Assembly: GCA_947259095.1 (NCBI GenBank) | Contig: CAMYLA010000004.1 | Location: 124,001-188,000 of the forward strand | Source: an uncultured Acidimicrobiaceae bacterium | GTDB lineage: Bacteria > Actinomycetota > Acidimicrobiia > Acidimicrobiales > SZUA-35 | Length of the DNA: 64,000 bases | Direction: 5' to 3' | Shown: piece by piece, positions 187-55,053 of the stretch | Layout of the letters: the number at the start of each line of letters is the position of its first letter | How positions within the stretch are numbered: the stretch's first letter is position 1 | The notes under the pieces: generated by a model | Seen by the model: only the letters and a program-made list of their open reading frames with translations | Told to the model about the DNA's origin: nothing | Databases searched by the model: none | Made by a program: the position numbers and the translations under genes

Positions 187-258
187 ACGTCGCCCACGGG
201 ATCGTGCCGGCAGCCCGATGTCCACCAACCACAACAAGCAAACGGAAAGGCCAACGCC

Positions 259-906
259 ATGGAGCCTGTGAAACTCGAAGTCTGGTCGGACTATCTCTGA
301 CCGTGGTGCTACGTCGGGACCGTGCGTCTCGAACAGGTCGTCGAGGAGTACGGCGATGACGTCGAGCTGATCTGGCGCAGCTTCATGCTGCGCCCGGAGC
401 CCGAGGAGCGCTCGGCCGAGAAGTTCGCCGAGTACACCCGCTCCTGGGAACGACCGGCCTCAATGGAACCAACGGTGACGTTCCGAACCTGGTCGACCGA
501 CAATGCTCCTCCCAGTCACAGCATGCCTTCGGCGGTGGCGGGCAAGGTGGCGGCCCGATTCGGCCCCGAGCGCTATCGAGCCTTCCATCGCCGGGCCATG
601 GAGGCCTACTTCACCGAGAACCGCACCATCTCGGACCGGTCGGTCCTGCTCGACCTGGCCGAGGAGGCGGGCATCGACCGTGAGGCGTTCGATCAGCGGT
701 GGCAGGAGGAGGGCGAGGCGCTGCTGGCCGAGGTGGTGGCCGAGCACAACGAGGCGGTCGGCGCCGGGATCAACGCCGTCCCGTCCCTGGTGGTCGGCGA
801 GAAGTACCTGGTGGCCGGGGCGGTCGACGTGGCCGACTATCGCCGGGTCATCGACACCTACCGCTCCGAAACAGCCACCGAGCCCGGGCCCGACGCCGGT
901 TCCTGA
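259..906 (+). CDS. DsbA/FrnE-family thiol oxidoreductase, candidate selenoprotein (in-frame TGA at 298-300)
   Basis: The ATG at 259 follows a GGAAAGG ribosome-binding site and opens MEPVKLEVWSDYL; codon 14 is then TGA, followed by P-W-C-Y-V-G in the same frame. The family norm is S-D-x-x-C-P-W-C, so TGA replaces the first, nucleophilic Cys of CPWC. The frame stays open for 200 more residues, with a proper thioredoxin-fold DsbA domain including the cis-Pro loop (AVPSLVVG, Pro about 175) and a tail typical of FrnE proteins. A 7-bp hairpin begins 14 nt after the TGA. Read through, the protein is 215 residues, normal for the family. A GTG at 322 could start a shorter product, but it would lack the whole active site. 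Family role: cytosolic FrnE-like DsbA proteins exchange disulfides or isomerise substrates. Selenocysteine is inferred; the alternative is a nonsense-mutated pseudogene. Confidence 0.8.
314..332 (+). promoter_or_regulatory. Candidate bacterial SECIS hairpin in the DsbA-like gene
   Basis: Bases 314-320 (TCGGGAC) pair with 326-332 (GTCTCGA): seven pairs, one of them G-U, closing the loop CGTGC. The stem starts 14 nt and the loop 21 nt after the last base of the TGA at 298-300. Bacterial SECIS elements lie just downstream of the UGA, with a G among the first two loop bases; here G is second. The element lies inside coding sequence, as expected in bacteria. Folding was done by eye. Confidence 0.6.
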
Positions 907-12508: not shown

Positions 12509-15091
12509 TTAGCGGGTGTCGTGGCTCAGCCGGTCGAGCACCTGGTCGGTGTGCTGGCCGAGCAGCGGCGCAGGTCGGAGCACCCCGTTGTCGCCGGTGG
12601 TCGATCGCCACGGCACCCCGGTGTGGGTCCTGACCCCGACCTCGGGGTGGGGCAGCCGCTCGAAGAACCCTCTTGCTTCGAGGTGCTCGTCGGCCAGCAG
12701 ATCCCGGGGACTCATCGACGGGAAGGCGGCAACGCCGGCGCCCTGGAGCCGTTTGGTCAGCTCCCACCGATCCTGGCCGTCCACCCAGTCCTGGACGATG
12801 GTGTCCAGTTCGTCCTCGTTGCGTTTCCGATCGGCGGCGGTGACGAAGCGACCGTCGGCGGCCAGCGCCGGGTCGATCAGTTCGGCCAGGGACCGCCATT
12901 CCCCATCGGTGGCGCAGGCGATCGAGATCCAGAGCCCGGGATCCGGTTCGTCCGGTTCGATGTCGGTCCGGTCGCCGGTCCGGTAGCAGCCGTGAGGGGC
13001 CATGACCGGATCCCGGTTGCCCATGCGATCGGGTTGCCGGCCGGCCATCGCGTGAGACATCCACCCCTCCACCGCATTGGATGCCGTGCTCTCCCACAGT
13101 GCGGTGTCGATGTAGCAACCCTGGCCGGAGGCCCGGCGGGCGACGATGGCGGCACAGATGGCGAAGGCGGTGGTGATGCCGGCCCCTGGATCGCCGATCG
13201 AGATCCCCAACTCCCGAGGCGGGCCGCCCTCGTAGCCGGTCAGCGAGGTCAGGCCGGACAGTGGTCCGGTGGTCGGCCCGTAGCCCATGTACCTCCGCAG
13301 CGGACCGGTACTGCCGTAGCCCGAGATCGAGGCCATGATCAGGTCGGGTTTGACGGCCCGCAACCGCTCGTAGCCGAGGCCGAGATTCTCCATCACCCCG
13401 GTGGCGAAGTTCTCGACCACCACATCGCTTCGCTCGACCAGCCGCTCGACCAATGTGATCCCCTCCGGGTCGGTCAGGTCGAGTCGGCAGCTGAGCTTGC
13501 CCTGCCCCCACTGATTGAAATACGACGAGGTGTTCAGGGTGGGCGCCACGTCTGGCGGGTGGAGGGCCAGCCGGCGCCCCAGGTCCGGTCGCTCCATCGT
13601 CTCCACCTTGATGACCTCCGCACCGAGAAACGCCAGGTGCATGGTGCAGTACGGTCCGGCCCAGACCCAGGAGAAGTCGAGCACCCGGATGCCCTCCAGA
13701 GGTCGCCGGGTCTGCGGCCGGTCGCCGTGTTCGCCGTGTTCGCCGTGTTGGCCGTGTTCGCCGTGTTGGCCGTGTTCGCCGTGTTGGCCGTGTTGGCCGT
13801 GTTCGCGGTGTTCGCCGTGTTGGCGGTGTTCGGCGTGTTCGCGGTGTTCGCTGTTGTTCACCGGGTGGGGCCGCCGGGGTCCGAAGTCGGGGGTCGACCG
13901 GTCGTCAAGCAGCGGGGCCGGGCGGAGCGGACCCCACAGCGACGGGGTGGAGCGAAACGGCGGTCCGAGGTGGGTGACGGTGCCGGCCACCGGGTGCTCG
14001 ACCTCGACCAGGAACCCCCGCTCGACCAGGTGCTCCTGGTGCTCCATGTCGGCCATGGTCAGCACCGGGGCGAAGCAGATCCGGGCCTCCTGGCCACGGT
14101 GCCACAGCTCGGCCACGGTGTGTTGTCTTGTCCACTCTTCCAGATAGACGATCAGCAGGTCTTCGTTCTCGAGCCGCAGTTCGGTGGTGTCGAACAGGCC
14201 GGTCTCGGCCCATTCTGGGTTGCCCATAAGCTCCAGCAGCCGTTCCCACTGGTCCTGTTCCACGGTGACGAGGAAGATCAGGCCGTCCGGCCGGCCGGGT
14301 CCGTCGGGAGCGCATGGCAGGATCTTCCACGGATTGAGCAGCCGTGAGCCGAGCCTGCTCGGGTTGGCGCCCATGTAGCTGGCGGCGATGACCGCGGCCT
14401 CCAACATGCCGGCGGTGTGGGCCATCGTCGAGAGGTCGATGTGGTCGCCGACCCCCGTCTGCTCCGAACGGTCGAAGGCGGCCAGGGCCACCATGGCGCC
14501 GGCCATCCCGGCGTGGAAGTCGGTCTGATGGCCGAACACCTTCAGCGGGGGCAGGTGGCCCTCGTCGGTGGCGCCGGGGCACTGGTAGGCCCAGCCCCCG
14601 CCGTGGGCCACGGTGATCTCCTCGGCCCGGTAGTCGGCGTAGGGGCCGGTCAGACCGAACGGGGTGATCGAACAGATCACCACCTCGGGCCGGTCGGCCA
14701 GCAGTCGCTCGGCGTCGAACCCGAGATCGGCCAGCCGGGCCGTGGCGAGGTTGGTGACGATGATGTCGGCCTCGGTCGCCAGCGCGACCAGTGCCCGTCG
14801 ACCGGCGTCGTCACCGTCGATCACCACGCTGGCCTTGTTGGTGTTGAGCGCCAGGTGCAGGCCCCCGGCGTCGTCGGCCGACCGGCCCGCTGTGCTGGGG
14901 CCGAACGGGCCCCGGGCCCGGGCCCGATCGCCGCCCGGCGGCTCGACCTTGATCACATCGGCACCCAGATCGGCCAGGAGCTTCGTGGCGTACGGTGCCG
15001 ACACCATCTCTCCCAGCTCCAGCACCCGGATGCCCGAAAGGGCCCGGCTGTGGTCGTCCGGCGGCCCGGCCGTCTCAGCGGACTGGTTCAT
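12509..15091 (-). CDS. Tandem CaiB/BaiF CoA-transferase with a His-rich repeat linker
   Basis: An 860-residue double CoA-transferase. Module 1 (about 20-405) has [37 protein letters not shown] and [14 protein letters not shown]; module 2 (about 460-860) has [34 protein letters not shown] and [14 protein letters not shown]. Both modules keep the catalytic Asp. They are joined by a roughly 45-residue tract of repeated H-G-E/H-G-Q units. It is convergent with the other double CoA-transferase (stops 55 nt apart). Pairing of two such fusions with acyl-CoA enzymes suggests CoA activation of acidic substrates, but acceptor and donor are unknown. Confidence 0.88.
13723..13852. repeat. 9-bp tandem repeat coding the His-rich linker
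   Basis: Repeats of CGTGTTCGC/CGTGTTGGC run for about 130 bp inside the CoA-transferase gene. On the coding strand they encode E-H-G/Q-H-G/E-H-R triplets with about fifteen histidines. The frame is kept throughout, so the array changes in steps of three residues. It is not a CRISPR: there are no unique spacers. Confidence 0.9.
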
Positions 15092-17583: not shown

Positions 17584-17626
17584 AGGCCCGCCGGCTCGTC
17601 AGGCGGTCTGTCGATCGGACAATCTC

Positions 17627-17660
17627 GGGCCAGGGCCAGGGCCAGGGCCAGGGCCGGGCC
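17627..17660. repeat. GGGCCA hexanucleotide repeat
   Basis: Four to five copies of GGGCCA, the last degenerate, lie between the M81 gene and the AhpD-like gene. The array is non-coding. It may be simple slippage; no regulatory role is evident. Confidence 0.7.
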
Positions 17661-17706
17661 GCGGGCTCGACTCGCCGGTCACCAGGTCGCGGCCTAACGT
17701 CTGGCC

Positions 17707-18291
17707 ATGGCGAACGAACACGGTCACCTGCCGAAAGCCGACGCCGCCTCCCTCTCGCCGGGGCTGGCCGAGCGTCGGAGGGTCTGGTTCGAGAAGGCAT
17801 ACGAGGACGACAACCTGTTCCTCACCCTGGCCCGGGAACCGGAGGTGCTGGCCATGTTCCTCGACTGGACCGCGTTCATCTACACCGACCGTTCGACCCT
17901 GGATCCGGCCATGGTCGAGCTGTGCCGGATCCGGTTGGCCAACCGCAACGAATGTGTGCATTGACGGAGCGTGCGCAGCTCATCGTTGATGAGCACCAGC
18001 CTGAACGACGAGATCGTGGCCGCTGCCCTCGGCGACCTCGACCAGCCCGGTCTCCCCGGGGTCGAGCTGCCGACGGCGACGGTGGCGGCGCTGCGCCTGG
18101 CCGACCTGTTGACCAGCGACGAGCCGGTGGTCGACGAAGGTTTCTACCGGATGCTGCGGGAGCACTTCAGCGACGGCCAGATCCTCGAGCTTGGCTCGGC
18201 CCTGGCGGTTGCCTCGGGCTGGCAGACCTTCATCGAGGCCTTCGGCATTCGCCCCGACGGGCCCTGGCTGGACGCCATGACCCCGGACTGA
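17707..18291 (+). CDS. AhpD/carboxymuconolactone decarboxylase-like protein, candidate selenoprotein (in-frame TGA at 17962-17964)
   Basis: The ATG at 17707 opens MANEHGHLPKADAASL. Residues 1-85 end with CRIRLANRNECVH, then TGA, then R-S-V-R-S-S-S-L in the same frame, continuing to TGA at 18289-18291. Read through, it is 194 residues, the normal size for this family, with the expected C-terminal helices (LRLADLLTSDEPVVDEGFYR, then HFSDGQILELG). The family active site is C-x-x-C followed by R/H-S; here it is C83-V-H-U86, so TGA sits at the second Cys. A perfect 7-bp hairpin begins 14 nt after the TGA. AhpD-like proteins use the pair for peroxidase-linked disulfide reduction. AhpD-like selenoproteins are known from bacterial surveys. 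Without recoding, two meaningless half-proteins would result. Confidence 0.85.
17978..17994 (+). promoter_or_regulatory. Candidate bacterial SECIS hairpin in the AhpD-like gene
   Basis: GCTCATC (17978-17984) pairs perfectly with GATGAGC (17988-17994) around the loop GTT. The stem starts at +14 and the loop at +21 from the last base of the TGA, the same geometry as the hairpin in the DsbA-like gene. The first loop base is G, as in known bacterial SECIS elements. Confidence 0.7.
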
Positions 18292-31518: not shown

Positions 31519-32958
31519 GTGACGGGCGGCGGCCGACGTCCGGCCTTGACCGGCCCATCGATCTGGTGGTCGACCCCGGCCAGTCCGGCATCGCAGTTCA
31601 CCGAGGCGGAGCTGGCCCGATCCCGGGTCTACCACCGGCCGCTGCGGCGGGTCGGCCTGGCCTCGGTTGCGGCCAGGATCGTACTGCTGGCCGTCGCTGC
31701 GTGGGTCGCCCCCGAGATCGCCGATCGTCTCGGCCTCCCTCAGCCGGTCACCGGGGCGGGCTGGTTCGACATGGTCACCTCGGCCTCGTTGGCCCTGTCG
31801 GCGGTGCTGACCGTTGTGGCCCTGCGGCTGCCATCGGTGGTGGCCGACGGCTGGTTCGAGTTTCGTTTTCGCCGAGGGATCGAGGGGTATCGGCCGCTGC
31901 GATTCACGTCGTTCGCCTCGACCACGTTGCTGCTGGCCATCATCTCCTGGTTGGTGCTGATCCCGGCCGCCGCCTCGTTCTACCGGCTGGCGGCGGTGAT
32001 CGTCGATCGGCGGTTGCTCTACACCATGGTGGTGGTGCTCGTGGCGTCGACGGTTGCGGTGGCCGCCGTGGTGGAGCGCCTGATCCGGAGGGCGCCGGTC
32101 GGGCGGGAACGACCTCTCGACCCCGAGTCGGCCCCGGGCCGGGCCTGGCATACGCTGGCCGAGCGGTACGGACTGGCCGATGTGCCGTTCCTCATCGGGC
32201 CGGTCGGTGGGGGAGCGGTCGGCACCGATCGTGGCGTTGCGTGCGATGAGTGCGATGAGTGCGTTGAGTGCGATGAGTGCGTTGAGTGCGATGAGTGCGT
32301 TGAGTGCGATGACGGCAACCGGGGCCCGGAGAGAGGCCGGAGCGGGGCCGACGAACAAGGTCGCGGTGGGCCCGACGAGTTGCCAAACGCCTGCGCCATC
32401 GGCCTGGCCGGCAACCGCCGGGTGGTCGTGACCGAGGCGCTGCTGGCCGAGGAGCCGGAGATCCGCGATTTTGTGGTGGCCCACGAGTTGGCTCACCTTG
32501 CCTTCCACCATGTGGCGGTCAGGGCCGCCACCACCGTGCTCGTTTCGGCTGCCGTGGTGGCCACGGTCGGGCTTGCGGCCGGATCCGGGCTGCCATGGAC
32601 CTGGTTCGGCACCGACCCCGTTGAGCCGCTCGGGCTCCCGGCGGTGGCCCTGGTGGCGATGCTGGGAGCCGGGCTGATTGCCCCGCCGGCGAACTGGCTG
32701 TCGAGGGCTCAGGAACGGTCCGCCGATGGCGGCGCAGTGTCGATGGTCGGAGCTCCGGCAGCCGTGGACGTCGCCGTCCTGCACCTGGCGACGGCGGCCG
32801 ACCTCGACCCGCCGTGGTGGGCCAGGCTCTACGGCGAACACCCGCCGCCGGCCGAACGCCTCGAATGGCTGGCCCGACATCGGGCCCGGGCGGTGCGATC
32901 CGATCGAACCGGGCGGCAGCGAGATGGCGATCGACCCTCCTCGCCCGTCGGGTGTTGA
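31519..32958 (+). CDS. M48-family membrane zinc metallopeptidase with a Cys-rich insert
   Basis: Start at the GTG at 31519; 479 residues. Several hydrophobic helices occur in the first 190 residues (AARIVLLAVAAWVAPEIADR, SLALSAVLTVVALRL, LLLAIISWLVLIPAA, TMVVVLVASTVAVAAVV). The peptidase part reads PNACAIGLAGNRRVVVTEAL, then VVAHELAHLAFHHVA (the H-E-x-x-H zinc motif), membrane helices, and the third ligand Glu in RAQERSADGGAV. The insert between GTDRGVA and the PNACAIG strand is a Cys/Asp/Glu repeat with eight cysteines. Family members (HtpX, Oma1, Ste24-like) degrade membrane proteins or process peptides. Start choice is uncertain because GTG 31519 has no clear ribosome-binding site. Confidence 0.8.
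   Translation: MTGGGRRPALTGPSIWWSTPASPASQFTEAELARSRVYHRPLRRVGLASVAARIVLLAVAAWVAPEIADRLGLPQPVTGAGWFDMVTSASLALSAVLTVVALRLPSVVADGWFEFRFRRGIEGYRPLRFTSFASTTLLLAIISWLVLIPAAASFYRLAAVIVDRRLLYTMVVVLVASTVAVAAVVERLIRRAPVGRERPLDPESAPGRAWHTLAERYGLADVPFLIGPVGGGAVGTDRGVACDECDECVECDECVECDECVECDDGNRGPERGRSGADEQGRGGPDELPNACAIGLAGNRRVVVTEALLAEEPEIRDFVVAHELAHLAFHHVAVRAATTVLVSAAVVATVGLAAGSGLPWTWFGTDPVEPLGLPAVALVAMLGAGLIAPPANWLSRAQERSADGGAVSMVGAPAAVDVAVLHLATAADLDPPWWARLYGEHPPPAERLEWLARHRARAVRSDRTGRQRDGDRPSSPVGC
32242..32313. repeat. 9-bp tandem repeat coding a C-D/V-E array
   Basis: Units TGCGATGAG and TGCGTTGAG alternate for about 72 bp, encoding eight cysteines each followed by D-E, V-E or a final D-D. The frame is intact. 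This is inside the peptidase gene, just ahead of the catalytic motif. Confidence 0.9.
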
Positions 32959-52458: not shown

Positions 52459-55053
52459 ATGGCCATACAGAGTGATCATGAATTCGCTCCGACCCAGATC
52501 GCCCGAGCGGTGTTCCCCACCGCATTTCGAGGCTACGACCAGGATGCCGTCCGTCGATTCCTCAGCCGGTTGGCCGCCGCGCTCGAACATCAGCAGGAGT
52601 ACGCCGGACTCGGCGCGTTGGAGGCCAGGACCCCGGCCCACGAAAGGGTCGAAGACCTCGAGGTCGAGATAGAGGACCTCCGCGGCGAGATCAGGGACCT
52701 CGAGCTGGAGCTCGTCCAGCGCTCGGTCGACGGCGGCGGCGATCCGGCGGCCGCCAACGGCGATGCAGTGGCCTTCGACGAGCACCGGGCCATCGAGCTG
52801 CTCGGTCAGGAGACAGCCCGGGTGTTGGAGTCGGCCCGCTCGGCCGCAGCCGACATCCTCAAGCGGGCCGAGCAGCAAGCCGTGCTGCTCAAGGCCCAGG
52901 CCAAGTCGGAGCTGACCGAGGCCAGGAAGCAGGCCCAGAAGCTGGTGGCGGAGCAGCGGGATGAGATCGGCCAACTGGTCGAGCAGATGACGGTCCTGGC
53001 CGAGGCCGACGCCGAACGGATCACCGCCGAAGCCGACGAGCACAGGGCCGCGGTGCTGGAGGAGTCCTCGAAGGTCTTGAGCGAGGCGGAGGCCCTGGCC
53101 GAATCCCAACAGGGCGACGCCGAGCAGCGGGCAAGGCAGATCGTGGCCGACGCCGAGACCCTGCGCCAGCAGGTGATCTCCGAGCTCATGGCCGAACGTC
53201 GGGAGGCCAAGGAGCAGATGGACCGGATGGCGGCCGCCAGGGACCGGCTCGCAATGTCCTTGGCCGTGGCTCGTTCGGAGCTCGACGACGTGGCCGACGT
53301 GCTGGCCGACGTGTCGATTGTGCGATCAGACGCCGATCGAACCGGCGCCGGCCTCTCCTCCGGGTTCCACATCGACGACCGGCGGGGCCAGGACGCCGGC
53401 CCGGCATCGATCGCCGTCGAGACCGAGACCGAGGCCGAGAGCGACCGCGATGTCGTGGCTCGTGGGGCGGCCGACGATGCCACCTCGATCGACGATGCCA
53501 CCGCGATCGACGAATCCGATCCGACGGCCACCGATGGCGATGCGGAGAGCATCGATGTCGATATCGATTCTGACGGCGACGATCCGGCGGTCGCCGGTGA
53601 CGAGGGTTCCGGGATCGCCGCTCCGTCGTTCCCCGCCGACATCGCCGACCGCACCGGGTTTGACGAAACGGTGGCCGGCGAGGGCTCAGCGGTCGATGAC
53701 GACCTGGTGACCGGTGACGAGGCTGCGCCGGTCGAGGAGGACCCGTCGGCCGAGGAGGACCGGGTGGTCGATCGGGGTGCGACCGCGAATCTGGATCTGG
53801 CGACCGATGATGGAGCTGCGCCGGTTGACGACGGCTCGACGCTCGACGAGGCCGTGGCGCTGGACGAGGCTGTGCCGGTCGATAAGGCTCTGCCGGTCGA
53901 TGAGGACGCGGTGGACGATGAGGACGCGGTGGACGATGAAGACGCGGTGCTCGATCAGGACGCAGTGCTCGATCAGGACGCGGTGCTCGATCAGGACGCA
54001 GTGCTCGATCAGGACGCAGTGCTCGAGGATGTCATCGAGCTCGATCAGGTGCTCGATCTCGATGCCCGGCCGGTCGAACCAGATGAGGCGCTCAACCAGC
54101 TGCCGGCGGACGGATCGACGTTGTCCCTGGTCGAGGGTTTCACGACCATCGAATTGCATGAGGAGTTGGTCGGCCAGGTCGGCCGGGACAAGCGTGGCGC
54201 CCCGCCCGAGAACGAGAGCGCAAAGGCCACCGCCGAGGTGATGGATCGGTCCGTGTCGACCGCAAACCCGGCCACCCGAATCTCGATCGGTGACCCGCCG
54301 CCGCCCGATGAGGTGATCACGACCGTCGCATCGAGGACCGCCTCTTCTCAGCGGGACCGAACCAGGGGTGACCTCGTGGTTGGTGACCGCTTCAAGGGGC
54401 GGCTCCCCAGGGAGTTCGCAGCCAGAGACCTGGCGTTGAGCAGATCGGGCCCCAACTTCCGGCGCCAGCTCCGGCGGGCCCTCAACGACGACCAGAGCGA
54501 CGTGCTCGACCGGCTTCGGGCAGGGCGTGGCTCGATCGAGATCGATGAGCTCCCGGCCTTCGGTGACCAGACCGAACGGTACCTGGCGCCACTGCGACGA
54601 GGTCTGTCCGAGATCGCCCAGGCCGGGGCCAGGGCCGGTGGCCGTCGGGAATTGTCACCGGCGGCGCTCGACAACCTGGTTCGCCAGCTGGCCCGGTACA
54701 TCGTGGATCGGGTCAGGGTCCCCACGATCCGGGTGCTCGAGGAGGCACCCGATCAGGACCGGGAGCGGATCCTGGAACCGATCCGGTCGCTGTACCGGGA
54801 GTTCCGCAACATCGGTCTGGCCGACCTCACCGAGGACGCTCTGTACGAGGCGTTCGCCATCGGCTTGTTCGACTCGATCGAGGCCTCGGTTCCGGTCCAG
54901 TGGGTGGTGGACCCCCGAAGCGATCCGGACCCGGTCTGCGAGATCAATCGTGGCCGATCCGACCTCGTGAAGGGGGAGGTGTTCCCCAGCGGACACGCCA
55001 GGCCACTGTCCCTTCCCGGTTGTCGATGCCTGGTGATGGCCGCCGACGATTAG
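52459..55053 (+). CDS. DivIVA-domain coiled-coil protein with acidic repeats and a Cys-rich C-terminal domain
   Basis: An 864-residue protein starting at the ATG at 52459. Residues 1-45 resemble DivIVA (ARAVFPTAFRGYDQDAVRRF, with F-R-G-Y-D-Q-D-x-V-R-x-F-L). About 55-290 is a long coiled coil (RVEDLEVEIEDLRGEIRDLE, AKSELTEARKQAQKLVAEQR). About 300-560 is an Asp/Glu-rich low-complexity region with D-Q-D-A-V-L repeats. Residues about 640-864 are globular and end with PVCEINRGRSDLVKGEVF and a last C-R-C. DivIVA proteins mark curved membranes at poles and septa; the middle and C-terminal parts are not typical of DivIVA. It may link polar growth to another process. Confidence 0.75.
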   Translation: MAIQSDHEFAPTQIARAVFPTAFRGYDQDAVRRFLSRLAAALEHQQEYAGLGALEARTPAHERVEDLEVEIEDLRGEIRDLELELVQRSVDGGGDPAAANGDAVAFDEHRAIELLGQETARVLESARSAAADILKRAEQQAVLLKAQAKSELTEARKQAQKLVAEQRDEIGQLVEQMTVLAEADAERITAEADEHRAAVLEESSKVLSEAEALAESQQGDAEQRARQIVADAETLRQQVISELMAERREAKEQMDRMAAARDRLAMSLAVARSELDDVADVLADVSIVRSDADRTGAGLSSGFHIDDRRGQDAGPASIAVETETEAESDRDVVARGAADDATSIDDATAIDESDPTATDGDAESIDVDIDSDGDDPAVAGDEGSGIAAPSFPADIADRTGFDETVAGEGSAVDDDLVTGDEAAPVEEDPSAEEDRVVDRGATANLDLATDDGAAPVDDGSTLDEAVALDEAVPVDKALPVDEDAVDDEDAVDDEDAVLDQDAVLDQDAVLDQDAVLDQDAVLEDVIELDQVLDLDARPVEPDEALNQLPADGSTLSLVEGFTTIELHEELVGQVGRDKRGAPPENESAKATAEVMDRSVSTANPATRISIGDPPPPDEVITTVASRTASSQRDRTRGDLVVGDRFKGRLPREFAARDLALSRSGPNFRRQLRRALNDDQSDVLDRLRAGRGSIEIDELPAFGDQTERYLAPLRRGLSEIAQAGARAGGRRELSPAALDNLVRQLARYIVDRVRVPTIRVLEEAPDQDRERILEPIRSLYREFRNIGLADLTEDALYEAFAIGLFDSIEASVPVQWVVDPRSDPDPVCEINRGRSDLVKGEVFPSGHARPLSLPGCRCLVMAADD
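53899..54026. repeat. 18-bp tandem repeat coding D-Q-D-A-V-L and D-E-D-A-V-D units
   Basis: Repeats of GATCAGGACGCGGTGCTC and the GATGAGGACGCGGTGGAC variant run for about 128 bp in the DivIVA-like gene. All keep frame and give a highly acidic tract. Minor base changes at GCA/GCG separate copies. Confidence 0.85.

Follow-up and report, generated by a model that had tools for sequence, protein, structure and literature searches.

A very probable AhpD-like selenoprotein with a C-x-x-U redox motif in an uncultured member of the Acidimicrobiales

The gene described here lies in a 64,000-nucleotide stretch (the window) of the draft genome of an uncultured Acidimicrobiaceae bacterium, which comprises 6.39 Mb in 229 contigs and is 96.5% complete and 7.1% contaminated. 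It occupies positions 17707..18291 of the forward strand, starts with ATG at 17707, has the conserved N-terminus MANEHGHLPKAD, and ends at its true stop, a TGA (18289..18291, +); the read-through frame encodes 194 residues and contains one internal TGA at codon 86 (17962..17964, +). With this codon taken as putative selenocysteine (Sec), the frame includes the redox motif C83-V84-H85-U86 (17953..17964, +). The first-pass annotation had described an AhpD-like protein interrupted by TGA at codon 86, with both sides in one frame and a joined product of 194 residues, and this description is confirmed with exact coordinates. At 17707-18291, standard gene calling would yield either a pseudogene or a fragment of 85 residues. 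The GC content of the window is 65-70%, and 102 TGAs in it are flanked on either side by no fewer than 80 open codons, two of them with Cys at position -3. Because such a pattern is common by chance in this GC-rich window, and the bare pattern is not beyond chance here, it was not taken as evidence in itself, and the case rests on homologues. A short tandem array of GGGCCA (5.8 copies, 17626-17666) is found about 45 bases before the start codon.

Homologues were collected from the family (39 genomes) and the order (397 genomes). The family search returned 11 close full-length matches including the gene itself, one fragment lacking codon 86, and 14 weak matches, and the order search returned 29 matches at E <= 1e-20, every one of which contains exactly one internal TGA. 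An alignment at codon 86, proposed as a check in the first-pass annotation, was made with 37 distinct coding sequences, the others being 44-77% identical to the window's protein: the TGA is kept at this column in 37 of 37, and the homologues read on, with none ending there. Left out of the 37 were L043, which lies at a contig end and begins beyond codon 86, and L026-L029, L060, and L061, which duplicate the positions of other loci; because their coding sequences are identical, L058 and L059 were collapsed before the count. The seven named loci with the AhpD-like protein all come from MAGs; six of these carry an Acidimicrobiales or Acidimicrobiaceae label, and the other is labelled Actinomycetota. 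Across 665 pairs the median pN/pS is 0.40 before the TGA and 0.57 after it (single-pair maxima 1.05 and 1.29, respectively), somewhat higher on the downstream side, and both sides are constrained at the protein level. A pseudogene or an assembly error, in which a Cys codon had mutated to TGA or been misread as TGA, would be in keeping with a single draft genome in many contigs and with the chance occurrence of the TGA pattern in the window; however, the presence of the TGA in all 37 distinct homologues, from many separate genomes, and the protein-level constraint after it leave that explanation with a negligible probability, and we regard it as already refuted.

The gene is accessory, being present in 3 of 12 genomes from the genus and in 29 of 397 from the order. 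Twenty-six neighbourhoods were compared, those of the window and 25 loci, several of them cut by contig ends, and no neighbouring gene is common to most of them. In the window's genus, all three genomes that carry the gene have an M81/MlrC gene upstream of it (identified by Pfam in the window and L085); in L031 such a gene is downstream, on the opposite strand. A tblastn search for a plasmid origin gave no match to the AhpD-like protein among 72,556 plasmid records.

Immediately beyond the TGA is a candidate SECIS-like hairpin (17978..17994, +) with a 7-bp stem, GCUCAUC/GAUGAGC, and the loop GUU. It begins 13 nt after the UGA, and the distance fits that of bacterial SECIS elements. All 31 sequences in the main register keep every one of the seven pairs, and compensatory changes occur: pair 1 is G-C in all but one sequence (G-U), pair 2 is C-G in all but one (U-A), pair 3 is G-C in 27, with two U-A and two U-G, and pair 6 is U-G in 24, with seven U-A, the remaining pairs being invariant. 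These 31 hairpins comprise only eight distinct 19-mers, so the independent changes are few. Six sequences with a shifted or different hairpin (L035, L036, L038, L039, L040, and L084) were set aside from the pair count; in five of them a comparably sized hairpin lies within a few bases of that position, and L084 keeps the TGA with no clear hairpin. Codons +6 to +10 are the five scored columns with the highest excess of synonymous identity, and within the hairpin all 36 Leu residues are encoded by TTG (background 14%) and all 27 Ala residues by GCA (background 13%). Folding energy is a weak indicator, with a z of -0.22 for the window and p <= 0.05 against synonymous shuffles in 15 of the 37 homologues and above that value in the other 22, and the SECIS reading rests instead on pair conservation and codon constraint. 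Rfam, which may not model bacterial SECIS elements of this kind, detected nothing in the window at gathering score. According to a legend in the Sargasso Sea selenoprotein study, the apical loop of the SECIS has a conserved guanosine (PMC1088965), and the loop here is GUU.

Constraint at the level of bases is also seen at codon +1, which adjoins the UGA: it is AGC or AGT in 36 of the 37 sequences, against a Ser background of about 30% AGY, and CGG in the window alone (17965-17967).

The genome encodes the machinery for Sec insertion, and a search for the sel genes, which had also been proposed as a check, found selA, selB, selD, and tRNA-Sec all present. The selA gene (404 bits) adjoins selB (275 bits) on contig C168, both above the curated cut-off, and tRNA-Sec is on C99 (64.8 bits, anticodon tca, UCA). 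Two selD genes (G000:C27:8618-9541 and G000:C83:1757-2680) each contain a single in-frame TGA, which lies in SHGAGUACKL inside the matched region. Counting against this evidence is the fact that the sel genes sit on other contigs than the window, in a draft that is 7.1% contaminated. The two selD genes differ from each other and may be a true duplication or a product of that contamination. Within the family, selA scores over the cut-off in 34 of the 39 genomes, and the three genomes without any selA match, all from one genus, are also without the AhpD-like gene. Across the order, selA is detected at E <= 1e-60 in 28 of the 29 genomes with the gene and in 206 of the 368 without it (Fisher p 2.5e-6, relatedness ignored). 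The exception, G107, is 80% complete; its selB scores above the cut-off, and its best tRNA-Sec match reaches 44.9 bits, just under the gathering score of 47. Taken over the order, selA occurs at that threshold in 234 of 397 genomes, and Sec use thus looks widespread but patchy. Sec use has already been reported in some other Actinobacteria (PMC5029168), and a sponge-microbiome paper reports both SelA and SelB in the majority of its symbiont bins.

Across the phylum, 396 genomes were searched and 56 contained matches; beyond the gene itself these are weaker, at no more than 95 bits compared with 272. Besides the window's own gene, 19 loci (L105-L123) from the 56 matching genomes, all outside the clade, were read, and 18 of these have Cys at the codon aligned with the TGA; the remaining one, L111, has TGA. 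It could be argued that the UGA is a real stop, the downstream half being made by re-initiation or not at all, or that it specifies some residue other than Sec. A GTG-start ORF does begin at 17971, and TGA does serve as a stop in the genome and at the end of this very gene. Yet termination at codon 86 would separate the redox motif from the remainder of the fold, the GTG (codon +3) is not conserved among the homologues, and the Sec machinery is both present and co-occurring with the gene. The Cys in 18 of 19 relatives also argues against this rival, and a reassigned UGA would not have left the gene's own TGA stop in place. We therefore consider these possibilities very improbable, and the conserved TGA, the sel machinery, and the structured and synonymously constrained stretch after the UGA together support the earlier proposal of a selenoprotein. 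Of the two findings named beforehand as grounds to refute that proposal, homologues stopping at codon 86 and a genome lacking Sec machinery, neither was observed. The gene very probably encodes an AhpD-like selenoprotein in which UGA at codon 86 would be read as Sec, giving a 194-residue AhpD-like redox protein with a C83/U86 pair.

A tree of 59 rows unites the 32 clade members, all with Sec, in one branch (support 100/99). Some deep branches are long and others poorly supported, several in all, and the number of changes between Cys and Sec outside the clade is for that reason unsure. Cys-containing relatives from other Actinomycetota (L105-L110) have the sequence ELVRLR-x-AF-x-NQCRSCM-x-[IV]RY, which aligns with ELCRIRLANRNECVHURSVRS of the window's protein, including Arg at +4 in both, but they have a Cys codon where the clade has UGA and form a separate supported branch (99/97). 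Since the 29 matches at E <= 1e-20 in the 397 genomes of the order all have the UGA, no Cys form of the clade protein was found among them. Distant AhpD-like paralogues in the same genome and in relatives also have an in-frame TGA in a CxxU motif (CHVU, CAYU, or CGLU), several with a hairpin after it; one is at G000:C36:25998-26363 (L054), and the others are L044, L047, L048, L051, L052, and L057. Among the 14 weak paralogue matches of the family search, 13 carry one TGA, and CxxU was confirmed in seven. Rows of the phylum table with one TGA, other than the 19 loci read, are G000:C36, two in G169, G428, and G769.

The first-pass annotation had assigned the product to the carboxymuconolactone decarboxylase (CMD)/AhpD proteins. 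The AhpD-like part of that assignment holds by profile and predicted fold, but the match to Pfam CMD (PF02627) is weak, at 18.1 bits against a gathering score of 23. With three members scanned, no NCBIfam model claims the clade at its cut-off: the window's protein scores 30.8 bits with TIGR01926 (peroxidase-related enzyme; cut-off 81.8), for which two relatives score 40.7 and 55.6, and 24.3 bits with NF053654 (cut-off 310). A profile built from 35 sequences, namely 32 clade members out of the 37 and three distant paralogues, detected solved structures of the superfamily, PA0269 (2ijc) at E 3.9e-16 and 2prr at E 2.8e-15, as well as the debrominase Bmp8. An AlphaFold2 model, computed with Cys at the Sec position, has a mean pLDDT of 87.4, and the solved structures that match it best are AhpD- and CMD-like entries together with Bmp8, the first 13 at Z 15.5 to 16.8. 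The predicted fold is all-helical and AhpD-like, with E-x11-C-x-x-C/U in a two-helix hairpin, as expected for the superfamily. The same two-helix motif with E-x11-C-x-x-C is found in Mycobacterium tuberculosis AhpD (1gu9, 1knc; Z 9.3 with the model) and PA0269 (2ijc and 2o4d; Z 16.1 and 16.0), and M. tuberculosis AhpD shares the His before the second Cys (CSHC; PMC3141380). Unlike AhpD and PA0269, the window's protein would have Sec as the second Cys, and it has Arg or Lys for the relay His.

The proton relay of AhpD consists of Glu118, Cys130, His132, Cys133, and His137, with the two Cys residues and a His said to be invariant (PMC3141380). By spacing, it falls on E71, C83, H85, U86, and R90. 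Glu71 (17917..17919, +), at the place of Glu118, is invariant in the 37 sequences, as are C83 and H85; residue 84 is Val in 20 and Phe in 17, and position 90 (Arg90 in the window, 17974..17976, +), at the place of relay His137, is occupied by Arg in 19 sequences and by Lys in 18. E71, C83, H85, and U86 therefore match four of the five relay residues, and the fifth, the His, is replaced by Arg or Lys, for which reason the protein is not filed as a canonical AhpD. One idea, rejected here, was that a selenol needs no base and that Arg for this reason took the place of the relay His: Arg is present in 14 of the 19 Cys rows too, and Sec therefore does not explain its presence.

Knowledge of AhpD-like selenoproteins with CxxU dates back to 2005. 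Published surveys describe 27 sequences from the Sargasso Sea (PMC1088965) and 299 + 70 sequences of two kinds in the GOS survey (PMC2398784), classed as AhpD-like 1 (COG2128) and as AhpD-like 2 and CMD-domain proteins (pfam02627) (PMC1088965, PMC2398784), and a 2026 review has four AhpD- or CMD-related CxxU entries and a fusion with an AhpD domain (PMC13188914). The claim in the first-pass annotation that such proteins are a known class is borne out by these three sources. By their descriptions, the proteins of all three resemble the window's in having CxxU, membership of the AhpD/CMD superfamily, and UGA at the second Cys. One table entry of the review, 'AhpD-like protein, TIGR01926, CxxU' (PMC13188914), differs in its model, TIGR01926, whose cut-off the window's protein does not reach. 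NF053654, a YciW-related (seleno)protein named 'GroundWater_YciW', is likewise an AhpD-like (seleno)protein and is nearer to the paralogues at L047 (52.7 bits) than to the window's protein, which lies far below its cut-off. The gene joins the known AhpD-like CxxU kind, published members having been compared by description rather than by accession, and its clade in the Acidimicrobiales is little described. The clade adds an all-Sec branch to the AhpD-like proteins.

From the UGA, the hairpin, the sel genes, and the conservation, we infer that Sec would be inserted at codon 86 instead of termination, with SelB carrying Sec-tRNA(UCA) presumably binding the hairpin just downstream of the UGA, to yield the 194-residue protein; when selenium is short, the message would give an 85-residue fragment. 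The product is predicted, with Cys in place of Sec, to fold into an all-helical AhpD-like structure, in which the C83/U86 thiol/selenol pair could close to a selenenylsulfide and be reopened by a cellular reductant. By alignment, Glu71, His85, and Arg90 would stand at the places of AhpD relay Glu118, His132, and His137. Judged from fold and motif alone, the protein is most likely a small thiol-dependent peroxidase or disulfide reductase acting on peroxides or reactive electrophiles.

A fair rival, if an unlikely one, is a selenoprotein that acts as a reductive enzyme on another electrophile, for example as a dehalogenase or a decarboxylase-like enzyme in the manner of Bmp8, rather than as a peroxidase-type AhpD. 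Bmp8 (6ohi and 6ohj; Z 16.6 and 16.5) is tied with AhpD-like entries in the structure comparison and is found by the profile, the relay His is absent, and acyl-CoA thioesterases, a CoA-transferase, an AMP-binding enzyme, and M81/MlrC near some homologues hint at the breakdown of small organic compounds; however, no neighbour is common across the clade, Bmp8 is 15% identical, and a common fold shows no function. The peroxidase or reductase role remains our preferred reading. It is conceivable, with rather low probability, that the chemistry of the Sec-only clade needs selenium, perhaps for reduction of a nonperoxide electrophile, instead of being that of a Cys enzyme boosted by selenium. The basis for this suggestion is the UGA in 29 of 29 matches, the His inside the motif (CVHU/CFHU), and the loss of the AhpD relay His. 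If it were true, the clade would be a distinct selenoenzyme family of the Acidimicrobiales.

Elsewhere in the window, a second likely selenoprotein gene is found at 187-906 (+), with TGA at 298; it is DsbA/FrnE-like, with U-P-W-C at the N-terminus followed by about 200 open codons, and NCBIfam gave only sub-cut-off thioredoxin-type matches. Among the window's CxxU and UxxC frames listed, only this frame at 298 resembled a known selenoprotein type. The first-pass annotation had considered the AhpD-like gene to have the same substitution as this DsbA-like gene. The two are indeed of the same kind, but they involve different cysteines, the first at 298 (U-x-x-C) and the second in the AhpD-like gene (C-x-x-U). 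Tandem arrays with 9- and 18-base units occur at 13722-13863, 32241-32312, and 53840-54049, the first of them inside a CoA-transferase III frame (12509-15091).
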